Assembly (NCBI GenBank): GCA_022925895.1
Contig: JAKSYS010000219.1
Span: 1 to 64,000 of the forward strand
DNA length: 64,000 nucleotides
From: Fragilaria crotonensis
Taxonomy: Eukaryota > Bacillariophyta > Fragilariophyceae > Fragilariales > Fragilariaceae
Direction of reading: 5' to 3'
Under the pieces are notes generated by a model. It was not told the origin of the DNA. It made no database searches and saw only the letters and a program-made list of their open reading frames with translations. Shown one piece after another: positions 29,221 through 46,134 of this stretch. The position numbers and the translations under genes are program-made. Within the stretch, counting starts at the first letter, position 1; each line of letters opens with the position of its first letter.

Positions 29221-29246
29221 GCCATCTAAGGGTGCCAAAACCAAGT
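29221..29246 (+). repeat. Left terminal inverted repeat
   Basis: 26 bp, starting GCCATCTAAGGGTGCC; one C/T mismatch to the complement of 41066-41091. Confidence 0.85.
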
Positions 29247-29377
29247 CGGCTCTTGGATATGAAAAACCAATTATCTTTGATATGAGAATTTTTTGTTCAT
29301 AATTTTTACCTAAAATATAGGTAAAAACTTAGGACTAAAGAGCTTGTACATCATGTGTATGAAGCGGGTTTCCTCGT

Positions 29378-29590
29378 ATTCCTGAACTCTGAAATTTATG
29401 TTTCCTGAACTTTTTCATCTCTTGCATAGGAGCTCATACTTTGCATTCCTGAGCTCCAAAATTTCAATTCCTGAATTTCACTGACTCATTTTTACTAACA
29501 CTCGGGTGGGATTCCTGAACTCTTGGACTCTAAATATATGAACTATACCACTTCTTCATTTGTGATCATGAATTTCAATTCCTGAATTAG
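29378..29590 (+). repeat. Left subterminal TTCCTGAACT repeats
   Basis: Six copies of ATTCCTGAACT or close variants at about 29378, 29402, 29445, 29467, 29511 and 29578. The same motif recurs at the right end. Likely transposase binding sites by analogy with CACTA and hAT subterminal repeats. Confidence 0.6.
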
Positions 29591-29800
29591 ATATTCGAAA
29601 AGAAGAAGTTTGCTGTGTAGTGTGTATGAAGTAATCACCTCAGTAGTTCTGAGCTGACATTGTTCATATAATAGATGTTATTGTCGCTCATTTTAACTTT
29701 TGTTGGAGATTAGTTTTAATTGTGCCTATTCGTGTGGCTTTGATGAACCATTCTACTATTCATTACTAAGTGTCTGATCTATTCTAAACTGCCTCCACTT

Positions 29801-31005
29801 TCAATTCACTGTAGACAAGTTCAGGAGCAAGATGACTGGAGTAGTTATCATCCTCCTCATCAGAGTCCTCGTCAAATACATCAATGCACTTGTGTGGGCG
29901 TTTCTTACCCTTGTCATCAAATTGTTTCCTGACCCCCCCCGGCCAGACTCCTTTTTCCTTCTGGACAGAAACATTTTAAGTAGTTCCTGGTTGAATGTTG
30001 GGGTGGTTGATTTCTTTCTATCATTCTTGATGGCCATGTATAATTCATCGTATTTCCTCATTCCCACCTGTGACCAACCACAGCCTCCCCCCATTATCAT
30101 GAGCACCCTTGTTCCTGGAGAATGTGTAAAGTGGTGGCTGCCGAACATGGTATTGCAAAGATTGGTCAGAAGTTAGGATGTGGTTTTTTCATTTCATTTA
30201 GTATCATAGTGTAACTTACGGGTAGGTTGTTGTTGTCCTCATCAGTCCATGTACCAATTCGCTGTTTCCAACAAGTGATAACAAAACAAGTCAGTTTCTT
30301 GTTGTTTGTTCTGTGACAAACCATTCGGATAAACTTACCATTTTCTCTGTCTTAACTAATTCCGCGAACCACCTCTTCCCATAGTTGATCAGGCACAGCA
30401 AAATGAATGCTTCATCACTTATGGACAGGATTTTCTTGCTCCATACTTTTCTGTCAGTTGTTGCACAGTGGTTCTCCATGTTGATAGTGTTATTCCACTT
30501 GCTGCTGCCGACAATGCATGGGGCATAGGTGTCTATGATTTGGGCATAGTAGCAGATATTATCCCTCATCTTGAGGAGGTAACTGGTTTCTTCCTCGCTT
30601 CCACTGTATAGGCTGTGTTCATACGTTCCTAAATTGGAAGTGAATCCTCTGGATGCAAGGTGTTTGATGTTGAATGCAAGTGAGTGTGAGTATGCTCGGG
30701 CTTTGGCAAAGTACACTCACTTCAATTCCTCACCTTTGAATTTCGTTTGCATGTTTTTTATTGCATTGTTCGAAGATCAGTGTGTGTTTTACAACTATTC
30801 TCCGCATCCCAAGCCACCAGTTTTCGGTTCCTCGAATGTTTGTGTGCTTCATGATAAAGCCACAAAGTGTTTTCTCATCTTCACTGAAATGAGAATGATA
30901 GTCTTTTTGATAGAACTTCCAAATAGAGAACACGTGTTTTTTGATGCAAGTCTTGATCACACTGATTTGATTCTCTTCTGTATTTTCCGTCATGCTCATG
31001 TCCAC
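29801..31005 (-). pseudogene. Transposon accessory gene, spliced, unknown function
   Basis: Reading leftward, the N-terminal piece 31005-30730 (NTEENQISVIKTCIKKHVF, DEKTLCGFIMKHTNI, WWLGMR) is broken before the next piece, 30716-30339 (AQIIDTYAPCIVGSSKWN, DRKVWSKKILSISDEAF, LINYGKRWFAEL). A GTAAGT donor follows at 30338. A 42-bp exon (30261-30220, RIGTWTDEDNNNLP) sits between two introns, and the last exon ends at 29801 with GWSQVGMRKYDELY. One G-run shift is needed near 30085. I know this WSKK... DEAFILL... GWSQ-G pattern only as a recurrent diatom protein found near transposases; its role is unknown. Confidence 0.55.
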
Positions 31006-31646
31006 TATGCTGCTTAGCCCTGGAACCGATGATGTTAGTTGGCTGTCACTTGATTTCCGACTTTAATAGTTGAAGGTAGGGATGGTGGATTTCCGTATGC
31101 ATGCTTCTGTCCTAGTTTTGCATCCATTTTCCGTGGCACTTCTTCCTCCTCCTCCTCCTCGTTGTCACTTTGAATCAGATCATTGGGATCTGTGGTCACT
31201 GTTTCACGCCTCTTATGAAGTCTCTCCTTTGTTTCCTAGAGCTGGGCTTTAAGGCAGTCATGCCTGCTGCTGTTTGGTGTGCCATTGATGCCATGGTTGT
31301 ATTTGTGGTGCTTCCTTGTTGTGTGAAAACTTTCCGATTGTGCGCCAAATTTTGAACACTGAAAATCCTGTTTGTGGGATAGTCTTTTTGCCACCATTTG
31401 AATTTCATACCAAGTACCGAGTTGGTATGTAGGTTCTACACATTCATGCAGGGTTTTCAAATTTTGAATTCATACCACACCCCTTCATTCTTTACATACA
31501 CCAAAATGTACCGAAAGTAAATGTACAATTTGAATGCACGCTTTCCGAACTTCTGTTTAGTGAATCTGTGTCCTGTCAATTTCAACACCTCATTTTCACT
31601 TCACTCGTCCTCTTCAAAACCCTTTCTTCAAAACCTTCTCTTCAAA

Positions 31647-34601
31647 ATGTTGTCCTCGTCTGCTTCCTCAAAGGCACCCCTGCTCTTCTGTCAAAACCCC
31701 TTCTGCCTGAATTTCAACAAGAAACCCTTTTCCAATCAAGCAGCATATACACAGCATATTGATAGAAACATCGGGTGTTATAATTTCATTGTGAAGAAAT
31801 CACACCATGCAGCAACACATGGGGCTTCTGCTTCACACCGTCGCCGTCTTCATGAGGATGGGAATATCACATGCACAAGTAACAAGAGGCCTGCCCTTTA
31901 AGGCGACATATGGTGAATGATCCCCACATGGATTTTGATGGCACAGACAACCTTCTGCAGTTTCCGGCTGGCAATGGTGTGGAAGTTGAAAGCACTTCTT
32001 GTGAGGACATCGAGGACTGCAACAAAAGTGATGATTTGTCCATGTTAAGTGATGACCCAAACATTCTTACCTGTACGAATTCTGCACTTGATGAAGATGT
32101 GGAAGCCCCATCATTTCGTTCAAACTTCATGTATACTACCGATCAGAAGTGGACTGTTTCTCTCCTCAAAATCCTGGACCATGCCAATGCACCCGACTAC
32201 ACTTTTGGTCAAGTCCTGGAGGGGCACGCTCTGCATCTGCTGATAATTATTCTTACAACCCAGTGGGTGGACTCTCGCGTGCCAAAAATGTTGATGCCCT
32301 GATCAACTCAGTTCGTAATGGGAAAAGACTGCTTCCCTTTGTACGAAGAGTGGATGTACATCATGGCTCTCCATCAGATGTGATTTGTTTTGACTTCGCT
32401 TCACAGTTGCTAAGTTTGCTGCAAAATCCAAGCATTATGACTGCAGAAAACCTTGCCATCGATATCAATGATCCCTGAAGCCCTACCACAAATTGAAAGG
32501 CAGCAATGTTTTGGGTGAGGCACTGTCCGGGAGTGTCTATCGCAAGGCGTATGATCGATTAATCACAGATCCTCAGAAGCAATTGTTTGTTCCAATCATC
32601 CAATGGATTGATCGTACCTCTGTAACAGGGAATGATCGCTTTTCACTTAAACCCTACATGTTCACTCCAGCCATTTTTACAGAAAAATTCAGAAGGAGTA
32701 TCAAGGCATGGGGCTATCATGGCTTTCTCCCAAAGAGGAAGTCCTCATCAGCTCAGAAGCAGACACTTCGTATGGGCGATGCCATTCGTATCTATCATAA
32801 GGAGCTGGATGCTGTATTGGAGACCTTTCGAAATGTTCACCACAACTGTGTGGTGTTCATTTGCCAATTGGTCCAAAGGGTAGAATCTGTGTCGACATTG
32901 TCACATGTGTGTTGTTCATCATTCAAGATATGCAAGAAGGAGATATGCTGTGTGGTCGGTATGGTGTTCACACCAGTGGAATCCAACGCCCTCATCGGTG
33001 CTGTGATGTCAATTATGATGATCTGAAGAACTGTGATGTCCATTGCAAATACCTGGTAGCCTCGGATATGGGTTTCATTGCCAGGAGTAATGATGATGAT
33101 CTCAGGAAACGATGGTCTCAACATAAACTTGAAAATGCATTTGAACACATTGCCTTTGCTGACCCTGAGCGTGGAATCTTTGGGGCCACTCCTGTGGAGA
33201 CAATGCATGCATTTCGGAAAGGTGTCATCGAAAGTAACAAAACTTATATTGGACAGTCTTCCAGCATCCAAGAAGGCTGCCTTTGATGACCTTGCAATAG
33301 CATTTCACAAGTCTCATCGCCAAACCTACCGAAAGGAGTATCCATCAACAGATTTCAGCAATGGGGTAACAAATTTGACAAAGATAACTGCATCAGAACG
33401 CGTTGGCCTCGTTTTTTTTGTTTGTCATCCTCTTCCAATATGAAGCAGGATGGCAAATGATCCAAACATGTCTTGAGAAAAGAACAACTAAGAAGGTTCC
33501 TGAGGTCCTTGAAGTACTTGAATCTCTCCTTTGTTTCGATGCTTGGCTAAACCAGAGTCATTACTGGGAGACTACAAATCCAGCACATGTTGCAAATGAA
33601 ATGAAGAAACATCAGGATTCCATTCGCAATTTCATGGATATGTGCAAACAGTCCATTCCCTTGAAAGTTGAGGGAAAGGAGGATGACAAGAAAAAGGGTA
33701 AGAAAAAGGGGAACCATCATAAGGAAGGAAGGACAGAAAAGCAATGCCGAGGATGCATGGAAGTTTCCGAAATTCCATGAGTTGTTACACATTGTGGATG
33801 ATATGTCTCGGTTTGGCTCTCCAGTGAACTTTTGTGCACAGCGTCCAGAATCACTTCTAATTCCTGCTGCAAAGCACCCTGGGAGACGGGCACAGAAGCG
33901 AATTGAGGGTTCTGCATATGAACTTCAGGCAGCCCAACGTTTAATGTACTCCTTCATGATCGACACCATACACACGCGCATATGGGAGCAACCAGATGGT
34001 GATGCTGATGTACCCGACAGCCACCATGATGATGAAACAACAAGGAATGGAATCTTTCAGAGCACCGGACAAGCAACATTTGGCTGTGTTTATCGATTCA
34101 AATCGAGTAAACAAATTCAGTACAAAATTGAATGGGACACCAGAACTCACCGTGATTTACTTGCTCTTCCCCTGGAGTTGATTGAGTTTCTTTTTGATTC
34201 CTTTAAGGAATCCGACTCAATAACATTTTGTACTGAATACAAACGAGATGTCCACACCTTTCGATGTCATCCCTGCTATCAGTCCGATGGTCCCATACAT
34301 GACTGGATGATAATTGACTTTGGGGAACATGGGAAGTTTCCCCTGTCGTTTGGCTCTTGTAGTTGTTGTTGACTCACCCGCGGATCCGGACGAGAGATAC
34401 CAACTGGTTGTTCAATCAACAACAGAAGAAATTAAAGAACACGAGTCAACACTGTTGAGGGAGTGGAAGTGGTCTCCAACATACCACCTTGTCTCTGGAA
34501 ACACTGTCGTGGCCCCTTGTTTTGTTATATCCATCTCACACAACAGTTCCACAGTTCTTGAGACAAAACCATATACAGAGTGGGCATCCAAATTCGCTTA
34601 G
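31647..34601 (+). pseudogene. DDE-type transposase, Plavaka/CMC-like, multiply frameshifted
   Basis: Nine overlapping open pieces in changing frames read as one protein. The N-terminus has a C2H2-like finger (C-x4-C... H-x5-C in FCQNPFCLNFNKKPFSNQ...HIDRNIGC). The next conserved segment is TVSLLKILDHANAPDYTFG. The core has LFVPIIQWIDRTSVTGNDRF (first Asp, about 32590-32640), VLFIIQDMQEGDMLCGRYG with HTSGIQR and CC (second Asp, about 32920-33000), FGATPVETMHAFRKGVIE, and near 33780 KFPKFHELLHIVDDMSRFG followed by RPESLLIPAAKHPGRRAQKR (Glu). This D-D-E order and the H-rich C-terminal block fit Plavaka-type transposases. The catalytic assignment is inferred from pattern only. Shifts lie near 31900, 32218, 32476, 32855, 33250, 33415, 33700 and 34345. 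Confidence 0.75.
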
Positions 34602-34705
34602 CTAGCTTGTTGCATCAAAGTACCTAAAGGAAACATGTTGCCATCGTCTGTCCGAGCCCTCACAATCTTTGGACCATCACCATCGGCTCGCTTTCTTGTT
34701 TGAAT

Positions 34706-37700
34706 CTACCCAAAGAGTAAAACTTGCCTTCCTGTTGATGTCTGGGCCATCATAAAAAGAGTTGCCTTCCGAAAGCTCACAAACTCATTCTTCACAGTTG
34801 AGGTTGAGCAGCAATAATCCAAGGCCTCCTTGCAGAGAGGAATTGCAACCACTTCATTTGCATCATACACATACCCACTGTGAATGGTAACTGCATGTGA
34901 ACCATTTCCATCGGATTCATTGAGCACAGCCAATACCATTGTGTCCTTCATTTGTTCTTGAAGGAGTTGCCAATCAAACATGTGTGGTCTCTTCAGAACT
35001 TGTCGGGTGATCCATGTAGGCAGCTGAGTTTCAGCAAACTGTCCCACCTTTCGAATGGCATCAACAGTACCTCCTCTTAGGTGACTTTCACCAAAATGGT
35101 TAATGGATTTGGCAGCATTATCAAATCCAATTGCATATAAAGCACTGGCCAATGACTTTGAAACACAAAGATCTTCACCTTCGGATTGTACAAAGTGGAC
35201 CTGGGGTGCTTCAGGAACCTGCAGCTTGGGATATTCATGCAAATGTGATTCTTTGAAATCGCCCACTGGTATGTCAACAAATCCACACCTCATACGCTTG
35301 ACCTCCTCCAAGAATCCTGTCTTAAATTGTTTCACAAAGTCTTCATCAGTTCGAATGGGCTGTGTTTCTCCATGAAAGATGACCTCCCAGTAACCAGGGG
35401 CCTGTATCTGCTTCATATGTTTACCCCCTGGTGAGTCACTGTTGCTCCTTAAGGACCTTTTCGACTGAGGATCAAACACCCATTGTGTCTGTGGGGGAAC
35501 GTATCGCAGCTTATGTACCTTTTAGTATGAATGAGGATGGTTTCCCCTTCAGGAACAGGTACAAATCCATCCGTGTTTCCAACGTTAATGACATGTTGGA
35601 TTACCCCTTTGCATAATCGGCATCCTTGATCCAGTCTTTGGAAACAGCAATTTTTTCTTCCTTCTTTTCCAACTTTCCTTCTTTTGTCTTAACATTGTAA
35701 ACCAAAAGTGCAACAAAGGTATCTTCACGTGGGTTGTACTTGAGGCCATGCACCATGGCCTCAGTGCCAAATGTCCATTCCAATTCAAATGCCCTTTTGA
35801 ATTTCTTCCTTTCCTTCTTCATAAACTTTATTTCTTTCGTGTACTGCTCTCTGTAATCATCCTTTGTCTTTTTCTTCTTACATCCATCAATTTTTTTGCA
35901 TCTCGGCCCGCTTCTTTTCCACATTCTTCATGTGATCTTTGGTAGAGCTCCAACCCCAGTACAAAAATCTGTCCTCCACGAATTTGTTCATTGCTGCTTC
36001 ATCCCTAAGAAGCACTGGTCGATCTTCACCGTCATCTCCTTTCTTTCGCCACTTTTTTCTAAATTTCTCAACTTCATTGTCTGATACCAATGTTTTGTAC
36101 CTACTTTCTCCGAAAGGTAATTTCGGGCATTCATCAGGTACATGAATGTCTCCATAACCATACGTACGAGGAGGCCCACCTTTCCATACCCTGCTTGCTC
36201 GGGGAAGCTTAGCAGGATCATTCCACCAGGCTTCGTTGAGATCAATATCTTCTTCCTGTTGTTCAGGTCCATCAGCAGATCCAGATGGTTTGAAATCGGC
36301 AACATCCTCCTCTGATGGCAAACTCCGTTCATTGGCATTTGGCAAAACATCCTCCCTGGAAGAAACATCCTCCAACGTAACACTGTCGTCCTCTGTGGCA
36401 TTGGATGGTACTGGCACCCAGGGCCACGTGAAAGTCTGAAGTTCCAACTTCAGACTTCCGTAACAGGGATCCATCAAATGATTTGAATTCTGACGTTTTG
36501 GGACTGTGACGTGTTGAAATTCTGCAATGCGATCAAACAGCAAAAACCACTGTGCTTTCATCGCATGCAAGTAGGAAATGGAAGCCGAATCATCCCTTTT
36601 AAACAGTTTTGTGAATATTCCCTGTGGAAAACAGCAAATGTGCTCCTTCGATTTCACATCAGTTGACATCTGGATTTCCATGCGATCGCGTCTAAACATT
36701 TCGTTGTACGCTGCAACTCCATCTTGAGTCCCAATGATATCTCGGAGAATTATTGCAATTGCAGCTATAATCCCAATCCCACAGCTATGGCCATCTTCTT
36801 GCAGGGGAAGAACATCATTATCCAACACCCTCAATGCAGGGAATGTATTGGTGCCCTTCATTTGCCCAAAAAAAGGTTCGTCCGAACGGACTGAGCCACT
36901 TCATCTTGTTTGGAGTGCTGCTATCATTTGCACTGTTTTTCCTTTGCTCCTGGTAACTGAAGGCAAGGTTCAGGAACCAGACAACACCGACATTGTTTGG
37001 AATTTTTCTCGTGCCGGAGGGATGAAGACTGCAATAGCGAAAAAAACATGTCCGGAGGCATGATACATCATCCGTGGCAGCCACAACGTCTCCAGCATTG
37101 AAAACAAATGTTGCCCCCCAATGATCGTTGCTGAGATTCGTAGGAAACACAATCAACCTTTTCTGCAGAAGCCCTGGATAGAACAACAGGACTTCCTTCA
37201 CAACACGATTCATTTGGTCATCATACTTCTGGTAAAGTTCTTCCTTAGAACTTCCATACCTTTTTTTCACAAGGGCAAGACATTCTGCATGATCGGCTCC
37301 ATTGGCTACCATCAAGTCGTTTTCGTACTTCTTTGCAGATAGATGACGTTGAAGACGCAAAGCAACCTTGAATTACCTGCATGTCGTCAAAGACAGGATT
37401 GCAACTGATGTGTGATACCTGCCATCCCTCATGAGGAGTGAAGTCATCATTTGCAGCTCACGGGTGGCCATCCAAGTTTTCCCACCACTTTTGCTATGAT
37501 CAAGCCTTTCCTGTGATCCCATTTCTCCAAAACCACGCAACTGGTCAGGCAGAACCAGGTCACCAAATGGTGGTGGAAGAAGGTTGTTCAAATAGTCCAG
37601 ACCGGTAAATGCCTCTTCCAGATCTGCATTTGTCAGCAATGCTCCACTTGCAACATCATCTTGAGATCGATTGTTGATGAAGGGTATTGGCACCATACAA

Positions 37701-38913
37701 ATGTTTTTCTGGTGTTGCTACCATCATTCCGTGCACTGACTGTCTCATTGTTGCTCTGCACAATCTCCAAAACATCACTGCTCACGAGGGAAGGGGAACC
37801 ACCACTCGATTTTGCGACTATATTGATCTTGCTTTCTTCCTCTGACTCAACAACAGCACGCGGGGAACCATCATTTCTTGTTGCACTGATCACATCACTG
37901 TTGCTTTCAACAACCTCGACAGCAGCACTGTTAGCAGCACTGTTCAAAAGGGAACCGGAAGAAAGTTTCATCAGAGGGATAATGCAGTGCTCCTCAGACT
38001 CTGGTACAATCCATGCAAATCCACCTGTGGTCTCGTCCATTAAGGTGTCGGCAATTGTCTTGGGAAGAAACTCAATGCCAGTTGTGTCTTGGAGATTGAT
38101 TTGACGGAACCCACAGGCTTGGTAGAATTCCTTTGGCTCGTCATGGGGACACTGCAAGTAGATGTCCACACCATGTAGGCTCTCCTGACATTGTGACAGC
38201 TCACGGTGAGACAATAATAAAAAAGTTGAATGCTTGATGAGCATTACTAACATCAGACGTCCAAACCCTTGCCGTCTCCAGGATGTAAGACCGGATGGCT
38301 TCCGTGATTCAGATTCTGCAATCAACAGCCAAAGCACCAACGACGCACCAACTTCATCTCCAATTCCACTTCGAAATGTAATGCATGCAATAACAACAGA
38401 GTCTTGGCACCCTATGACAGATTTCTTGAAGGGGTCATCTTCTTTCCAAGAGGACGTCCCACAATCATTATTGATGGATCAGAATTCACAGCACGATCGA
38501 TAGAGCTCAAATCAGCTTCTGTAGAATTGAATGATGTGCTGTAGAATTGCCTTGCAGCTTCTGTCGCCCACTTAAACCTTGTCGCCTCAGCTTTGTTTGT
38601 TTGGACACGTGTGGGGTACAACGTAACTACCTTGAATTGCCAAATTTCATTGGAGTCCTCTTTCGTTCTGAGTCATAATCTTGGACAACGGGAGGTCTTG
38701 AAACCAAGAGCTGAACATGTGTAGTGGAAACTCTGAAACAGCACGAGCGGGTGATGATAAAAAGACTCGAACTTGCGATCTGAATTGTTTATTGACCTTT
38801 GTTCCTGGAGGTGGTGTGAATTCATCCATACCATCACGGAACAGGTACGCCTTATCCATAGGGACTCCTCCTTGCTGACGAGAGACAGGGGACAGTGATG
38901 GAACCTCTGCCAT
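34706..38913 (-). pseudogene. Composite transposon gene: GNAT acetyltransferase, Ulp1-like C48 protease and papain-like protease domains
   Basis: Read leftward from the ATG at 38913 (MAEVPSLSPV). A GNAT domain occupies about 38500-38090: VIACITFRSG and SLVLWLLIAES strands, the acetyl-CoA loop WRRQGFGRL and FYQACGFRQI. A spacer follows, then NLLPPPFGDLVLPDQLRGFG (about 37580-37520). Next is a C48/Ulp1-type domain: NLSNDHWGATFVF carries the catalytic His (about 37120), and LPLQEDGHSCGIGIIAAIAI the Gln and Cys (about 36760). A basic helical linker (35900-35600) follows. The C-terminal domain (34706-35479) has DLCVSKSLASALYAIGF with Cys and SHAVTIHSGYVYDANE with His and Asp/Asn, a papain-like (C39-like) layout. 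At least five single-base shifts, some in T or G runs, break it. Convergent with the transposase, with a gap of about 100 bp. Confidence 0.7.
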
Positions 38914-39665
38914 TTTGTTGGTTGAAATATGAATAATCCTCCAACTGGTGTGCGTGTATACAACTCTTGAGCATGCGAACAGACAACTGACAAAAAGAAC
39001 CAATACCGGTAGATCAATCTGGTTTGATTCACTCAAATCAATGAGAATCTCTCAGATGACCGAATATTGGATTCTAGATGACAGATTGCCTTACAAACTC
39101 AATCGAAGCACGCACACAAGACGAAGTACTTATTCCCTCAATTAACAACAAAATGAGAAGCACAACACTTGTCGACAAGGATCCTAATTATGAAAGGAGA
39201 AGAAGAGGAGGATGTGAGATTGAAAGCTGGAAAATACAATCATGTGCAATGACACAACGTCAACAAGAAAGACTGGAGTACAGTACCAGCACAATGTTGT
39301 ACGGAAGCCTCCAAGGTACTGTCGTGGTGCGAACTCGTCCCAGTACTTGACAGTACCATGAGTACAGTACGTAGACAATGGTACAGGCACAACAGGAGTA
39401 CCTCAACAAATCAATCAGTTGCTCACAATGATGGAAACGACGATTCAACACAACATTCTTGTGTTGATAGGACAAAACAATCAAAAACTCACGAACAAGA
39501 ACGACAGTTAAGTGCCCTTGTTAGTGGAAAGGAAGAAGAAGCAAAGGGCAAAGGGGACAAGCACAGAATGAAACATTCAATGCGGTGTTGGGCATGACAC
39601 CAAGTTGTGACATCGACAACCGTACAGCAGGCACAAGGTAGTATTGTAATAAACCGTAGGCCCAC

Positions 39666-40033
39666 CAAGGTACTGTCATACTCCCAGTACTTGATAGCAA
39701 CATGAGTACAGTCGTAGACAACAGTACATGCACAAGGTAGTGTTGTACCGTAGCCTCAAGGTACTGTCGTATTCCCAGTACTTGGCAGTACCATAAGTAC
39801 GGTACGTAGACCACGGTACAGGCGCGACGTAGTGTATTACCGTAGCCTCCAAGGTACTGTCGTACTCCCAGTACTTGGCAGCACCCTAAGTACGGTAGGT
39901 AGACGACTGTACAGGCGCGACGTAGTGTATCACCGTAACCTCAAGGTACTGTCGTGCGAACTCGTCCCAGTACTTGACTGCACCCTGAGCACCGTACGTA
40001 GACAACGGTACTGGCACAACGGGAGTACCTCAA
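39666..40033. repeat. 92-bp tandem repeats, four units
   Basis: Units begin CAAGGTACTGTC at 39666, 39757, 39850 and 39942 (spacings 91, 93 and 92). A fifth, detached unit starts at 39312. Each unit contains CCCAGTACTTG and an ACGTAGAC block. They lie in the right arm of the large transposon. Confidence 0.85.
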
Positions 40034-40880
40034 AACTCATTCGACCATCACCATGATGGAAACATTCAATCAACACAACAATCAACGAAAAAAGCACATT
40101 TGCAGTCTTACCACTTAAGACTGCAATGTCTTGTGGGTGGGAAAGGACGAAGAAGGAGCGAAGATGCCAAATAATGGAGCATCAATGTGGTGTCGGGCAT
40201 GACACCAAGTGGTGGAGTGCTCAACGAACGAAGTGTGAGATGTGACACTTCCCGCAAAAAAAATCACGTACGATTCTACTAAAGACAATACTGTGGCTGA
40301 AAAAGAATTAATTCCTTGTAGAAATATACAGCATGCACTGGTATTGGTGCCAAAGAATTAATCAGTACATACTATCGCCTACAATTCTACGGTTTGTTGT
40401 TGAAAACACAAGATCACGTAGTACGTAGCATAGTGTCATAGGAGTACTCGCATGATACAATACTGTACTAAAAATTATACGCTACCACCATACCGTAGTA
40501 CACAAAACACAGCGCTATAGTAATGAAAGTACCGTACACAGTACCACACTACCATACACACAGACCACGCCGTAGCTACCATACTGTACACCACCGCACC
40601 ATACTAAACGTACTGTAGCAGGCACCGAACACCATGCACCATGCACCAGACACGCCCATAGCTACTTGTACAACGTACAATGTACAGCGTATAACCAACA
40701 ACGAACCATTGCGCTAGTACGACGGTAGTATCAGCTGACAGCACTGTAAAAACCGCTGTATACTGTACACTGTACGGCACAACCAATAGTCCACCCACGA
40801 TACACCATGCTACTCCAGTATTTCGTACAAAACACGTACAGTACTCGGTGTTTTATGTGCATCGAAATAATGAAGAAAAA
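40034..40880. other. Right arm of the transposon, GTAC-rich, no gene
   Basis: Highly repetitive GTAC/TACGT/CCGTAC sequence (40400-40860) with only random ORFs. Confidence 0.6.
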
Positions 40881-41030
40881 GCTCAGGAATAATACTGCAG
40901 TAGTTCAGGAGCAAAAAAATTCTTCATAAAAATGAGGAAACAGCAAATGTCGGAATCCTGAACTAAATAAATAAACCAGAAAAAACTTCAGGAATCCTGA
41001 ACTAAATATGGGAATCCTGAAATTTTTCCA
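40881..41030 (-). repeat. Right subterminal TTCCTGA-type repeats
   Basis: GCTCAGGAAT (40881), GTTCAGGA (40903), GGAATCCTGAACT (about 40952 and 40992) and GGAATCCTGAA (about 41012): mostly the inverse of the left-end motif. The palindromic form TTCAGGAATCCTGAA occurs once. Confidence 0.55.
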
Positions 41031-41065
41031 ATAAATATGATAAAAATTCTTGTATCAACTATGGT

Positions 41066-41091
41066 ACTTAGTTTTGGCACCCTTAGATGGC
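41066..41091 (-). repeat. Right terminal inverted repeat
   Basis: Ends GGCACCCTTAGATGGC, the complement of the left end; followed by the GTG duplication. Confidence 0.85.
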
Positions 41092-41755
41092 GTGAATCTA
41101 TCAGCACCTACTGGCAATAGATTCTGTGTGGACGGCAGTGACAAGTGCACTGATTTTTATGATGACACGACCAAGAATGACAATGACAACAACCCACCAG
41201 TCTGTGCATTGCCCAAGCCAATGCCCAAGATAGCCCATCAAGGTTATGAATGAAAGTGGATTTGTCATCTGTCCATGTGAGCATTGACGAGTACGATGTC
41301 GAAAATGTTGGAACACATGTGACTTAGTGCAGCAACGGTGAGGAAGATGATGTTGATGTCGATGTCGATGTCAATGTCAATGTCAATGTCAATGTCAATG
41401 TCAATGTCAATGTCAATGTCGATGTCAATGTCGATGTCAATGTCGATGTCAATGTCGATGTCGATGTTGATGTCGATGTTGATGTCGATGTCGATGTCAA
41501 TGTCGATGTCAATGTCGATGTCAATGTCGATGTCAATGTCGATGTCAATGTCGATGTCAATGTCAATGTCAATGTCAATGTCGATGTCAATGTCGATGTC
41601 AATGTCAATGTCAATGTCGATGTCAATGTCAATGTCAATGTCAATGTCAATGTCAATGTCGATGTCGATGAGTATGGTGAAGACAATGACACTGGCTTAG
41701 ATGATGATGGCAAAGAGCGATACCACGAAGCTTGTTACAACTCTGTCATTGATTG
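41092..41755 (+). pseudogene. Fragment of an acidic Asn/Asp-Val repeat ORF
   Basis: Downstream of the transposon end, one frame reads VNLSAPTGNRFCVDGSDK... KNDNDNNPPVCALP and stops at 41253. A second frame carries GEEDDVDVDV, about fifty (D/N)V dipeptides and then DEYGEDNDTGLDDDGKERY, stopping at 41755. The acidic composition and low-stop frames suggest an old coding region, perhaps cut by the transposon insertion, but no homologue is recognised. Confidence 0.35.
41346..41670 (+). repeat. Hexamer satellite (RATGTC)n
   Basis: About 54 units of GATGTC or AATGTC with a few GATGTT variants. All six frames are open through it: Met-Ser and Asp/Asn-Val repeats on the + strand and Thr-Leu/Thr-Ser-type repeats on the other strand. 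Confidence 0.95.
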
Positions 41756-44653
41756 AAGAGGATGATGCAGACAATAGAAGCCTTTTTGACGTCATAACCG
41801 GCTTGTACTACATGTACACACATCATCAATTGGGCACCCAAGATGCCAACTTCCTCTGACATCAGGAAGCTTCAGGGATTGGATTTGAATGAGAAATATA
41901 TGCTCAGTAATTGATAGTAGTTGATATCAAGGGTTCAGACTATACTAGTAGCTAGATAGCTATCATCAGTTCAGACCATCATAGTAATCATGTCAATGGA
42001 ACAAAACATGCTGAATGCCAGCAGCATTGTATCGGTAGTGTATGATGCACAGTGCCAATAAACTACTACTTGCATCCAAAGCCAATGTCTAAGATTACAG
42101 TAGAAACAGTGCGTTCACATCTGCGTTTTGATTTCACAGCTTGTTTTTTGGTTAAGATGAGCGGACACACTTGACCTGCAAGCCAGCCAAAATGAGGGAT
42201 ATAATCAAACCTATCGAATGTGTCAGACTCCGTGCTCCAGGTAATGGAATGGTCAAAGAGCTTGTATATGCATATGTGACACATGGATGCGTCTGTTTTC
42301 ATATGATACTAGAAATGATGCGCAAACAAAAGAAATTAAGGAGGTAGCATTGATGGCTGTTATTAGTGAGGTTGGCGTGCGAGCAGCAGGGTCCTCAGCC
42401 TATGCAACACCTTTTTGACTTGGTTGGAGTATCCAATATTACCAGGTAATATAGGTGCTCAAGCAATACATACTATTAATTGTTGATATTTGACCTAAAA
42501 TTATGTTTATTCATCAGCTACCTGTGAACTGATGCTATCACTAACTGAGACCTGAGAACTAATTAAGAAGGTCATAGCAGCATAAGCTACTGTCTACCAC
42601 CTTACAGAGGGCATTTGCACCAGAGATGGGAATACTATTGGGCCCAGCCCACCCTAACCCATCGGGTTAAGGGTGTCCTCAATTCTAATTCTTCAGCAGG
42701 CAAGGTACTGCAACAGCTTGTACACACCTTGCTACCTGCTGGGCATCAAATGTCACACCAAGCTACTCTTGTCAAAGAAGATGCATTTCATCCTACTACT
42801 GCTGCCTGTTGCTACGTTATGATAAGGACAAACTAACGTAAAGCAGCAACCACGTGAAATCATCTGTTGGTACAAGATGAAATCCTCAGTTAGCTATCTT
42901 TCTAACATGCCTTGCCCACGATGGACAAAGAAAGAAATTCGGGTGCACCTCTTTCCTCTTTTCTGTTTGGCAAGATGTAGACAATGCATTGACAGGAGCA
43001 CCCACATTCAAGGATGAAATGGAAACCAGGGATTTTTAGTTCCAAATTGGCACAATTTTCTGGATACCTTTTCTGATCTTTCAAATCAAACCTCCATCTG
43101 TTTTTGCCATCGCTCCCAACTCCAAACACAACAATACATGAACACATACCAATAAACTATGTTGGTGTTGTTCTTTCATGAGGATGTCAGCAGGATCTAG
43201 AGCAACTGCAGACCTCAGGTGCTGCTAGTTGTTCCAACCACTATTGCTAGGACTAATGACTTTTGCCTGGGCCTATAGTCATAACTACTTTGATGCATTC
43301 TTGACCTCATGAGAAAAATGTCATGGTCTGGCACCATTAGCTACATGGGTTGGAGAACATTGATTCGTGGTTACCAGCAGCCAGCTATCCATATTTGTTC
43401 TTAGTGTTGTGTGAGGTTTGTCTAGAAAAACTATAAACACTTCACTTAGTTGTTGTATCCACTCAATGATAAATTGTAATCATCTGCTGCATTGTTGATT
43501 TCAAAAATGAATTTGCAGCCTTTTCATCTCATTGGGTCCTGTTGGAGTATATACCCAGATTTCCAGTGGAAACAACACCGTGTGCATCTGCCTGATGGAT
43601 CATAACTCCTGGAACCATTATTGGCTGATGGCCTCATCCCGAACAAGTGGCAAAACATTGGAAATGTATTCTCCTCATCATGAAAGGTGCAAATGACAAT
43701 ACAAAATTTGGTATGTACGTGACTTCAAAATGCTGACGGTCACTTCAAAACTTCAAAACATGCAGGCCTTGATTCTCAGACAGCAGCCATGATGGACAAA
43801 CTGTTGAGAAACTGTTGAGAAACTGCGAGACCCTCCCAAGTTACAAGTGCACATACTCAGGGGTACAAGGGATGAAACGTGTGGCTCACAGAGCTTGCCT
43901 TGTGAATGTATATGAATCCCAGCATGGGACAATGAACGATTCCTTGTGCAGTGTACTCCATGAGATGAATCTGATACATATCAAATACAAGACTGTCACA
44001 TCAGGGAAATGAAATTGTTGATCCGGATGTATGGGTGGATATCACCAACGTTGGATGTGCGTTGCCAAAAAATCTGCATCAATTTTCAGCTGGGACGAGG
44101 TGCGCAGATCATTTTGGGAGTCCCTTACCATACACCAATTACACATCTACTATAAGCAAGTCCCACTCAGGAATCAGAACATACGCGCCGTGCCGGGGCT
44201 CCCAAGGAAGAGATCGGACAGGTTATGGCTATCTGTGCCATTCGCTCCTAGCCCTGCCAATCATTGACTGTCTGTAGTTTGCTAGTTGCAACAGGTATCA
44301 CGTAGCAGATGGAATGCCGGTGCACTCGGCTATGAACGAATCCATCCGAAGCTGGATATCTTAGTTAAGTTATAGCGAGACCTACTAGGTACGAGAAAGA
44401 TGCTTCAGCAGACGGTTGGCGCTGAGTAAAAACCTGCAAGAATTTGCGGGTGAAGAATGAATGAGATACATTCATTGGAACTTTCGCTTTCCGTTCCAGA
44501 GCGAGAGAAGATGAATTCGTCGAGTCTTCACCGCATCAGTAAGCGGTAAAGTTTGCTGGCACGTCAATGCAACATTGACACGCTCATATCTAGCAGTAGT
44601 ACGTAGGTTGGCAACTGAAAGTAAGATATTCGGCAGGTAGCAGCTGTTTCGTC
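41756..44653. other. Gene-poor stretch, no supported gene
   Basis: 2.9 kb with only short random ORFs. At 42621-42680 a sequence starting CAGAGATGGGAAT matches the right end of the 28.6-kb MITE, in the opposite orientation, for about 60 bp. It looks like a lone hAT terminus. No partner end is found. Confidence 0.5.
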
Positions 44654-45526
44654 TTATGAGAGCGTCACTTCCCAGACTTCTATGTCGTCCACCGAATAAA
44701 CTGGATCAAGGTCACGGGAAGGTATCCTCCGTGTTCGCAACCCCTTGGCTGCTGCTAATTGTCTGAACTTTTCTCCTGGATGATATTCTGAATAGTACCG
44801 ATGCTCATATGACAGGATGGCAACAGCGTCGTCTTTCATGAGTTCCACAAGGGCATCGACGAGGGGATCAATCGGGTAGAGTTTGGGCAAGACGCAGTCG
44901 GATACCAATATCACATCGAATCTTTCCTTCATCTTGCCACTTCCCCACCAGTACTCACAAACTTCTAGAACCTTACTGTCAAGTAAACCTTCATCATGTC
45001 GAGAAGCGTTTTCCAGTTGTTGACATGCATCGATGACATTAGCCTGGGCAAGCGTTACCACATTCTGAATTCCATCCGTGCAAACAACTCTTCGGGCTCC
45101 CAGCACTGCTGCTGCCAAGCTTGTGACACCAGTCCCTGCCCCCAAGTCAATCACAGACTTTTGCCGCACCTTGAGAGGGTACTTTTCCAAATACTTGAGT
45201 AGCACCATGCTGGCCGGCCACACTGTCGCCCCAGTTCCAAATGTTCCTTCAATTTCACCTCGTTGCACTTGCTTGACAGAAAATTGTATTCCTTCCAACA
45301 TGAAAATTGGATAATCTTCTGCCTGAGAGTATCGAGACCTCCACCCGAGACTGGACGATTGCTTCTTGACAAAATCACTCGTGACGCATCGTTTGGTCTT
45401 GGAAGGCGACGCACGTTGATCCAACGCGTCGAAGAATGCTGTCGCAGTGGGATGTGGTCGCCTTCGTTGCAATTGAGTTGTCACCTCTTGAGCCTCCAAC
45501 TCGGGTGATGATGCCATCGGTGGCAC
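44654..45526 (-). CDS. METTL21-type (methyltransferase 16 family) protein lysine methyltransferase
   Basis: 290 residues, intronless (the ATG at 45517 is an alternative start). The class I SAM-binding motif I is VIDLGAGTGV (125-134), preceded by the family's TVWPASMVLLKYLEK substrate-side helix (101-115). Motif post-I is RRVVCTDG, and DVILVSDCVL (204-213) takes the place of the family's D/E-x-x-Y/F motif. The C-terminal strand pair is DIEVWEVTLS. The family methylates lysines on chaperones, elongation factors and similar proteins; the target is unknown. The N-terminal 60 residues are basic and low-order, with no clear targeting signal. Divergent to the HIR-like gene. Confidence 0.8.
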   Translation of the reverse strand: MPPMASSPELEAQEVTTQLQRRRPHPTATAFFDALDQRASPSKTKRCVTSDFVKKQSSSLGWRSRYSQAEDYPIFMLEGIQFSVKQVQRGEIEGTFGTGATVWPASMVLLKYLEKYPLKVRQKSVIDLGAGTGVTSLAAAVLGARRVVCTDGIQNVVTLAQANVIDACQQLENASRHDEGLLDSKVLEVCEYWWGSGKMKERFDVILVSDCVLPKLYPIDPLVDALVELMKDDAVAILSYEHRYYSEYHPGEKFRQLAAAKGLRTRRIPSRDLDPVYSVDDIEVWEVTLS

Positions 45527-46134
45527 TTGTCGTGATCGCCCAATTCGAATGCGGTGATACGTTTCCAGTGATAATGGAACGTGCGTTGTTGTTGTTGCTT
45601 TTTGCTTACGGTATGGTTCTTGTCTGTCATACCAGTACTGTACGAGGTACTTTGTGAACGACGTGCGTCAATACTCTGCCTGATACTGTTATACACCGTA
45701 CAGTAACGGTACCTGGTGCCTGGTACTGTGTACTGTAGTATCATAGGCGCGAGATCATGCGCGACTCGCCAACTACCGGTACTTGCGGTACGGTTGTACG
45801 GTCATACAGTCGCCAGTCGCGCCTCCCCAATGACTCAGCCGTGGGAGATCGATCAGATTCTGTCGGTAACCAAAGGCCACTCTCAACTCAGACGCAGCCT
45901 AGATGACAAATCTTTTAATTCCCACAGAGAAGCTGAACCACAAGGTGTGAGTCTGTGAACAAGTGTAATGTGTACTGTAAGTATGCCAAGGCAAGGCGAG
46001 GTAGATAGTACTATTCTCCAGTACGAGTATATCGAATCTGACAACAGCGAACAGCGGTCTTGTTTCATAATTGAGCTGTTATCAACGAGAAATTGCATTC
46101 CATTTCCTTCTTACATTCATTCTGATTCGATCCG
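45527..46134. promoter_or_regulatory. Divergent promoter region, METTL21-like / HIR-like
   Basis: 608 bp between two divergent starts, rich in GTACTG, CGGTAC and ACCGGTACTT motifs (45630-45800). No TATA box is assignable with confidence. Confidence 0.4.

Follow-up and report, generated by a model that had tools for sequence, protein, structure and literature searches.

The locus considered here raises the question of whether a row of broken minus-strand frames in the diatom Fragilaria crotonensis is the remnant of a single transposon gene, in which a GNAT acetyltransferase, an Ulp1-like (C48) protease and a second, papain-like protease have been joined. A first-pass annotation, made from the letters alone, had proposed such a fusion for positions 34706–38913 of the window, the window being the whole stretch of 64,000 nucleotides analysed (contig JAKSYS010000219.1, positions 1 to 64,000; contig C136 of the genome searched). 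The analysis points with good confidence to a young transposon of the Plavaka type with three genes, one of which, referred to below as the accessory gene, is predicted to encode one protein of approximately 1,400–1,700 amino acids comprising a GNAT domain, a C48-like domain, a basic linker with a middle block (MID) and a C-terminal domain resembling cysteine peptidases. The best explanation as a whole combines this element and its one-protein accessory gene with a role in countering silencing, and is held with modest confidence.

Ends, target site and transposase of the element

The accessory gene lies within a complete Plavaka DNA transposon of 11,867 bp, occupying 29223–41089 of the window. 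A 26-nt inverted repeat with 96% complementarity pairs 29221–29246 with 41066–41091, and the ends of the element start with CATCTAAGGGTGCC... The termini, CATCT..AGATG, share four of five bases with the CATCA..TGATG of PlavakaB, which is reported to generate target duplications of 2–3 bp (Kojima 2025, PMC12730594; statements on this and the other cited papers refer to those portions of each that were available).

The genome searched comprised 62.1 Mb in 881 contigs. The terminal sequence was matched at 110 places with two or fewer mismatches, and the reversed control at none. From 100 of these 110 matches, 36 head-to-head pairs of terminal inverted repeats (TIRs) were formed; equal 2-bp flanks were present in 31 of the 36 pairs listed, where approximately 19% would be expected by chance. 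Sixteen of the 36 listed, the window element being one, span more than 10 kb and 14 of these have equal flanks. A further group of short elements with the same ends (14 of the 36 listed pairs) spans 6.69–6.91 kb. The one short element that was inspected, L020 (C658:318560-325380), can be aligned to the window element at the left end, in the third gene, over one segment of the transposase region and at portions of the right end. The accessory gene has no aligned counterpart, indicating a deletion derivative that lacks it.

The transposase gene is convergent with the accessory gene and is spread over several frames. Its match to PF18759 scored 35.9 bits in the window and 48.2 bits at locus L016, with a cut-off of 26.3. 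A C2H2-like N-terminal finger near 31700 and, in the L016 transposase, a C-x2-C motif (CRAC) were recognised by eye. For the third gene, a Pfam search with a limit of E 0.1 gave no match; the gene is weakly similar to frames that follow the accessory gene in contigs C314 and C253 (tblastn E 0.001).

A viral origin of the element was considered and rejected on account of the TIRs, the target duplications and the failure to confirm relatives in viral_contigs. Pattern-based scans confirmed no relatives in viral_contigs (alignments A1 and A2) or in genome_contigs (A2).

Extent and continuity of the accessory gene

The motifs quoted in the first-pass annotation, and the collinear minus-strand frames that bear them, were all found where it had placed them: WRRQGFGRL and FYQACGFRQI in frame 37633–38478, NDHWG in 36818–37372, LPLQEDGHSCG in 35887–36900, and both DLCVSKSLASAL and SHAVTIHSGYVYDANE in 34706–35521. 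Its limits for the gene held at the 5' end, where the ATG at 38913 is probably the start. By comparison with L046 the stop probably lies near 34598 and not at 34706, and the element as such reaches well beyond the gene on either side.

Continuity was assessed from other copies of the gene. In the subfamily of the window, a frame of 907 amino acids at L046 (C347) contains the GNAT motif together with the His region (reading DDHW) and LPLQEDGHSCG. It overlaps by 235 amino acids, at 97% identity, with a frame of 616 amino acids at L002 (C157), which continues to DLCVSKSLASAL and SHAVTIHSGYVYDANE and through the C-terminal domain. The text of the linker and MID is nearly the same inside this 616-residue frame (by eye), and MID is conserved in other subfamilies. 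In a distant subfamily, a frame of 1,414 amino acids at L009 comprises GNAT, C48-like domain and MID, a frame of 567 amino acids at L013 comprises MID and the C-terminal domain, and each spans the break of the other. GNAT and the C48-like domain also share one frame in L010, L011, L014 and L019, as do MID and the C-terminal domain in L011, L015, L016 and L002. Because the open frames of other copies overlap in this way, the accessory gene is read as one gene and not three. On the same grounds separate genes were rejected: the inspection of other copies for genes with starts and stops of their own came out for a single gene, and, with the TIRs and target duplications, bore out the proposal of a transposon gene with a single open reading frame (ORF).

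Many of these breaks have the character of errors in the assembly. Over 3.7 kb, a comparison of the window copy with the majority reading of nine copies revealed eight substitutions and 13 short indels, in addition to one in-frame insertion and three gaps of greater length. All 13 short indels lie beside base runs, next to which 57% of places lie (P 0.0006), and in the nine copies together this was the case for 102 of 132. The association is clear only in some copies, being 13 of 13 in the window and 11 of 11 in L003, with 9 of 16 in L008 (57% expected). Over 5.4 kb, loci L011 and L012 show 99.96% identity, and they are set apart by three indels that change the frame, each of one base within an A-run. 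The stretches fetched for them match almost throughout, and they may represent two distinct insertions or one place present in two versions. The assembly of F. crotonensis SAG 28.96, likely the one used here, was produced from Nanopore R9.4.1 reads with Pilon polishing (PMC9476933).

Domains of the predicted protein

The identity of the first domain as GNAT is well supported by profile and motif comparisons. Among solved structures a nine-member profile was best matched by NAA50 (E 7.5e-5), and PF00583 was recognised in L017 at 24.7 bits, above the cut-off of 20.7. Scores against Pfam GNAT families were 23.4 bits (6.1e-5) for L014 and 21.2 bits (3.1e-4) for L010, below the cut-off of 23.6, and 15.7 bits for the window domain alone, below its cut-off of 27. 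The acetyl-CoA loop of GNAT enzymes has the form R/Q-x-x-G-x-G/A. R-x-x-G-x-G was present in 8 of 9 rows, the exception being L015, in which a loop glycine has been lost. This part of the proposed fusion was upheld.

Peptidases of the C48 (Ulp1) family possess His, Gln and Cys in that order, with the catalytic Asp following the His. In the middle domain H144, Q252 and C258 are invariant in all nine rows. Three of eight members match PF02902 weakly, the best at 17.7 bits against a cut-off of 20.7. Profile-profile comparison with eight recognised C48 proteins of the same genome (profile A4, 8 of the 18 C48 loci fetched) aligned on the Gln-Cys motif over 25–26 columns with P 0.001–0.002, and the score of 30.7 exceeded those of 100 of 100 column shuffles (best 23.0). 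A PDB profile search with the C48-like alignment returned nothing relevant. Because none of the acidic residues that lie between His and Gln is invariant, the domain is described as C48-like and is not filed as a C48 peptidase; activity is predicted at most, and catalysis may be absent. One of the invariant residues Asn152 and Asn199 could act as a stand-in for the catalytic Asp. The C48-type domain of the first-pass annotation is therefore retained for its His, Gln and Cys, and not for the canonical Asp or a PF02902 score over the cut-off.

Clan CA peptidases of the papain-like and OTU-like kinds carry Gln, Cys, His and Asn or Asp in that order. In the C-terminal domain Q77, C84, H174, D185 and N187 are invariant in 12 of 12 members, including those of a diverged lineage (lineage 2, described below) at 25–29% identity. 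Profile searches gave no credible match to this domain in Pfam, NCBIfam or PDB. The profiles used for comparison were built from the longest frames of five of six papain (C1) loci and five of five OTU loci; Peptidase_C39_2 had no match in the genome and was consequently unusable as a yardstick. The motif is best read as that of a putative clan CA cysteine peptidase. What had been called papain-like thus retains the order Gln, Cys, His and Asp, and neither a family match nor a significant profile match to papain or OTU was obtained.

Distribution in the genome and a second carrier

All genome counts are lower bounds. The C-terminal domain was matched at 109 places, merged to 72 loci, and GNAT at 112 places, merged to 63 loci, with secondary short pieces and one match of 40 amino acids left out. 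A GNAT region lies 1.5–6.5 kb upstream, on the same strand, at 50 of the 72 C-terminal loci. Since the order recurs throughout the genome and the key motif residues are invariant in the alignments, the arrangement of motifs is judged not to be a product of chance. A PF18759 match was found within 8 kb at 32 or more of the 72 loci, 31 of these 32 being convergent; the figure is a lower bound because some transposases score too low for the Pfam search to detect. That of L009, for example, is absent from the 80 PF18759 matches in the genome, though it shares 61% identity with the L016 transposase over 408 codons. Thirty-nine of the 80 cover the later part of the profile, as does the match in the window, and 41 are of another type. 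An accessory gene lies within 8–9 kb of 35 of the 39 Plavaka matches of the window type, compared with 1 of the 41 others. In C314 and C253 the accessory gene has no adjoining Plavaka transposase of the window type. Another Plavaka-type copy appears to interrupt the gene in C253; in C314 a DDE_Tnp_4 frame (34.4 bits) lies upstream of it and no boundary joining both was found.

The genome also holds other multi-copy Ulp1 proteases over the Pfam cut-off (L028-L045; 44 places, frames of up to 1,090 amino acids), with the motif FPGDPR[FY] in 8 of 18 fetched frames. They are probably carried by other transposons.

Lineage 2 of the accessory gene was found in contigs C312, C317 and C687, in the order GNAT, eroded C48-like region, PHD-like Cys/His cluster (by eye) and C-terminal domain. 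In C312 it is accompanied by a DDE_Tnp_4 transposase (PF13359, 49.5 bits, cut-off 24.8), and this stretch is 67–68% identical at the DNA level to C687 and C317. The ends read GGACAT and, by eye, are flanked by 3-bp duplications, CTG/CTG in C317 and CAG/CAG in C312; the TIRs are short (28 nt at 82%, E 1.4 each). The left end in C317 matches the limit of homology with C687, the two being 98.7–99.3% identical over the element from this point on, and the right end in C687 lies at or beyond the end of the contig. These comparisons indicate that transposases of two different types, Plavaka and DDE_Tnp_4, accompany one and the same gene architecture. Separately, 4.4 kb of C317 (C317:66447-70855) is absent from the near-identical C687, reflecting either insertion into the C317 element or loss from C687.

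Selection on the accessory gene

Ratios of non-synonymous to synonymous substitution (dN/dS) between copies and subfamilies were obtained by Nei-Gojobori codon comparison. Close pairs gave 0.14–0.25 for GNAT and 0.13–0.25 for the C48-like domain. At middle distance the values were 0.16, 0.12 and, for MID, 0.055, all of them rough because dS in these comparisons is 1.2–1.7 and near saturation. The C-terminal domain gave 0.08 between L010 and L014 and is identical, together with MID, in L009 and L013. The accessory gene is under purifying selection between subfamilies, and the transposase, at 0.11–0.19, is similar in this respect. For other distant pairs of the accessory gene, beyond the GNAT pair considered below, dS is saturated.

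Several observations, of which the near-saturation just described is one, weigh against the interpretation of the accessory gene as a functional anti-silencing gene with three enzyme-like domains. The distant GNAT pair L009/L010 has a dN/dS of 0.38 at dS 1.9, and very close C-terminal pairs reach 0.37–0.79, denoting little constraint in recent copies, as would be expected of copies past selection or carrying errors. In none of the copies among the places listed is the gene open from end to end in a single frame, the longest frame being 1,414 amino acids. No Asp or Glu is invariant between H144 and Q252 in the nine C48-like rows, and the acid slot reads RYC, with Cys at the acid position, in 9 of 9 rows, against YDS in 7 of 8 and VDS in 1 of 8 of the Pfam-recognised C48 proteins behind profile A4 (both by eye). 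The C48 signal is modest, an unrelated pair of profiles (A5 vs A3) also scoring 25.6. In lineage 2 the catalytic C48 His is replaced (weak alignment, P 0.026) and no Gln-Cys motif was seen in the C48-like region. For the C-terminal domain, hhalign gave P 0.06 to C1 with the cysteines out of register and P 0.10 to OTU with the cysteines in register, other pairs giving 0.27–0.88. Single-sequence AlphaFold2 models of this domain as encoded in the window, whole and core, had confidence (pLDDT) values of 31.6 and 42.6, too poor for a fold. Finally, no direct sign of methylation emerged when cytosine methylation was considered as a shared cause of decay: transitions at CpG amounted to 0.0062 vs 0.0030 per site per copy which, with nine events, is no firm signal.

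Possible role of the accessory protein

VANC proteins of Arabidopsis VANDAL elements bring about hypomethylation within their own family; a subset (KIU) carries an Ulp1 domain, the function of which is described as unknown (PMC13317346). By analogy, it is tentatively suggested that the accessory protein is an anti-silencing factor with a role comparable to that of the Ulp1-bearing VANC (KIU) proteins. The basic linker and MID would bring the protein to chromatin at copies of the element. There, the task of the GNAT part would be to acetylate chromatin proteins or the N-termini of these, and that of the peptidase-like parts to strip the SUMO or ubiquitin marks that recruit silencing. Removal of these marks would maintain expression of the transposase gene. 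Every catalytic activity, the targeting and the anti-silencing role itself are put forward as predictions; the first-pass annotation had likewise offered an action on SUMO or chromatin as speculation, a status that it keeps. More speculatively, the protein might represent a portable anti-silencing module, combining acetylation with two deconjugations of the SUMO/ubiquitin type and exchanged between Plavaka and DDE_Tnp_4 elements, with a C-terminal peptidase family undescribed in Pfam and PDB.

A service to transposition itself is the main alternative, though a rather unlikely one, in which the protein would stabilise the transposase or couple excision to repair by removal of SUMO or ubiquitin, with the GNAT domain as helper. 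A like role has been proposed for the Ulp1 and OTU domains of Ginger transposases (PMC2836005), and retention of the gene beside one transposase lineage (35 of 39 matches) would be in keeping with it. The diverged version, however, accompanies an unrelated transposase type, which argues that the role is not tied to the chemistry of one transposase.

It is improbable that the protein is a scaffold and not an enzyme, its protease-like domains being worn-out binders of SUMO or ubiquitin with only the GNAT domain, or none, catalytic. Such a state would account for the missing conserved acid of the C48-like domain in nine members, the apparent loss of the C48-like His from lineage 2 and the glycine lost from the acetyl-CoA loop of L015, but sits poorly with the complete invariance of His, Gln and Cys in the C48-like domain (9 of 9) and of Gln, Cys, His and Asp in the C-terminal domain (12 of 12) across two lineages as diverged as these. 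That the locus comprises functionless captured fragments of host genes, or two or three separate genes, is very improbable: the gene is broken in the window and fully open in no copy among the places listed, but frames overlap between copies, dN/dS between subfamilies is well below 1 and many breaks look technical, with indels beside base runs in what is likely a Nanopore-based assembly.

Features of the element and its surroundings

The 93-bp tandem array upstream of the accessory gene holds GTCAAGTACTGGGA-like units and is a candidate target of a VANC-like factor. The heptamer TCCTGAA occurs five times in 29223–29800 and five times in 38950–41089, with ten occurrences in approximately 52 kb outside the element; the copies at the element ends are subterminal repeats of the kind known from CACTA-type elements. 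Coordinates of all features are given in Table 1.

Table 1. Positions in the window of the Plavaka transposon, its genes and the domains of the accessory gene.
Feature	Position	Strand	Remarks
Whole transposon	29223..41089		Plavaka, CMC-type clade; TIR pair
Left TIR, CATCTAAGGGTGCCAAAACCAAGT	29223..29246	+	2 matches within the window, 0 expected
Right TIR	41066..41089	-	One mismatch
Target-site duplication GC	Left copy 29221..29222; right copy 41090-41091		Flanks of the TIR pair
Third gene, broken	29801..31062	-	Frames 29801-30172, 30291-30716, 30730-31062
Plavaka transposase gene, several frames	31521..34372	+	PF18759 match in 32472-33026
Accessory gene, broken in the window	34598..38913	-	Read as one ORF in other copies
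C-terminal cysteine-peptidase-like domain (Gln/Cys/His/Asp)	34733..35416	-	
Lysine-rich linker and MID	35601..35927	-	Frame in the window
C48 (Ulp1)-like domain	36661..37552	-	Pieces 37376-37552, 36830-37345, 36661-36888
GNAT acetyltransferase-like domain	38017..38448	-	
Subterminal tandem array, 93-bp unit x 3.7	39666..40015		Upstream of the accessory gene

Directly beyond the right end of the element lies a long simple repeat (41265–41756, frames reading DIDIDID.../TLTLTL...). Further along, a minus-strand frame of 337 amino acids (44654–45667) has the look of a methyltransferase and is likely a host gene; it contains VIDLGAGTG, which we take to be a methyltransferase motif.

Comparison with known systems

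Transposons that carry Ulp1 have been known for a long time; here an Ulp1-like domain is fused to an acetyltransferase and to a second conserved cysteine-peptidase-like domain. If the proposed role is correct, the bundled protein-modifying activities would show which host marks the element must remove, the function of transposon-borne Ulp1 would become testable in a diatom grown in the laboratory, and the C-terminal domain may supply a new peptidase family. Literature on Plavaka, Ulp1/OTU, GNAT with transposons and diatoms was screened by title and start of abstract, covering few of the subscription papers, and the combination was not found among the papers listed.

C48 cargo also occurs in other stramenopile transposons, the CryptonF and CryptonS elements of oomycetes (PMC3212892). 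These are tyrosine recombinase elements, for which the available part of that paper mentions no GNAT domain or second protease. Ginger1 comprises DDE elements that have recruited Ulp1, OTU or Ulp1 with PHD (PMC2836005), the last recalling the PHD-like cluster seen by eye in lineage 2. In Ginger1, however, the protease forms the C-terminal part of the transposase and, in the available table, is OTU or Ulp1, not both, and the word acetyltransferase has no occurrence in the available text of that source.

The fungal Plavaka elements that bear TET/JBP are similar in several respects, with an accessory anti-silencing candidate, duplications of 2–3 bp and CATC...GATG ends; their cargo sits in several transposon superfamilies, as the gene described here likewise accompanies two transposase types (PMC12730594). 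That cargo is a DNA dioxygenase in fungi, whereas here an acetyltransferase is combined with protease-like domains, and the words Ulp1, acetyltransferase and diatom are absent from the main text of the paper. VANC/KIU of VANDAL elements, which are Mutator-like elements without TIRs (non-TIR MULEs), belong to a different transposon superfamily and host and are likened to the present protein by description, the available part of the source mentioning no GNAT or second peptidase-like domain (PMC13317346). They are likewise accessory proteins of a DNA transposon, some of them bearing Ulp1, that counteract the silencing of their own family.

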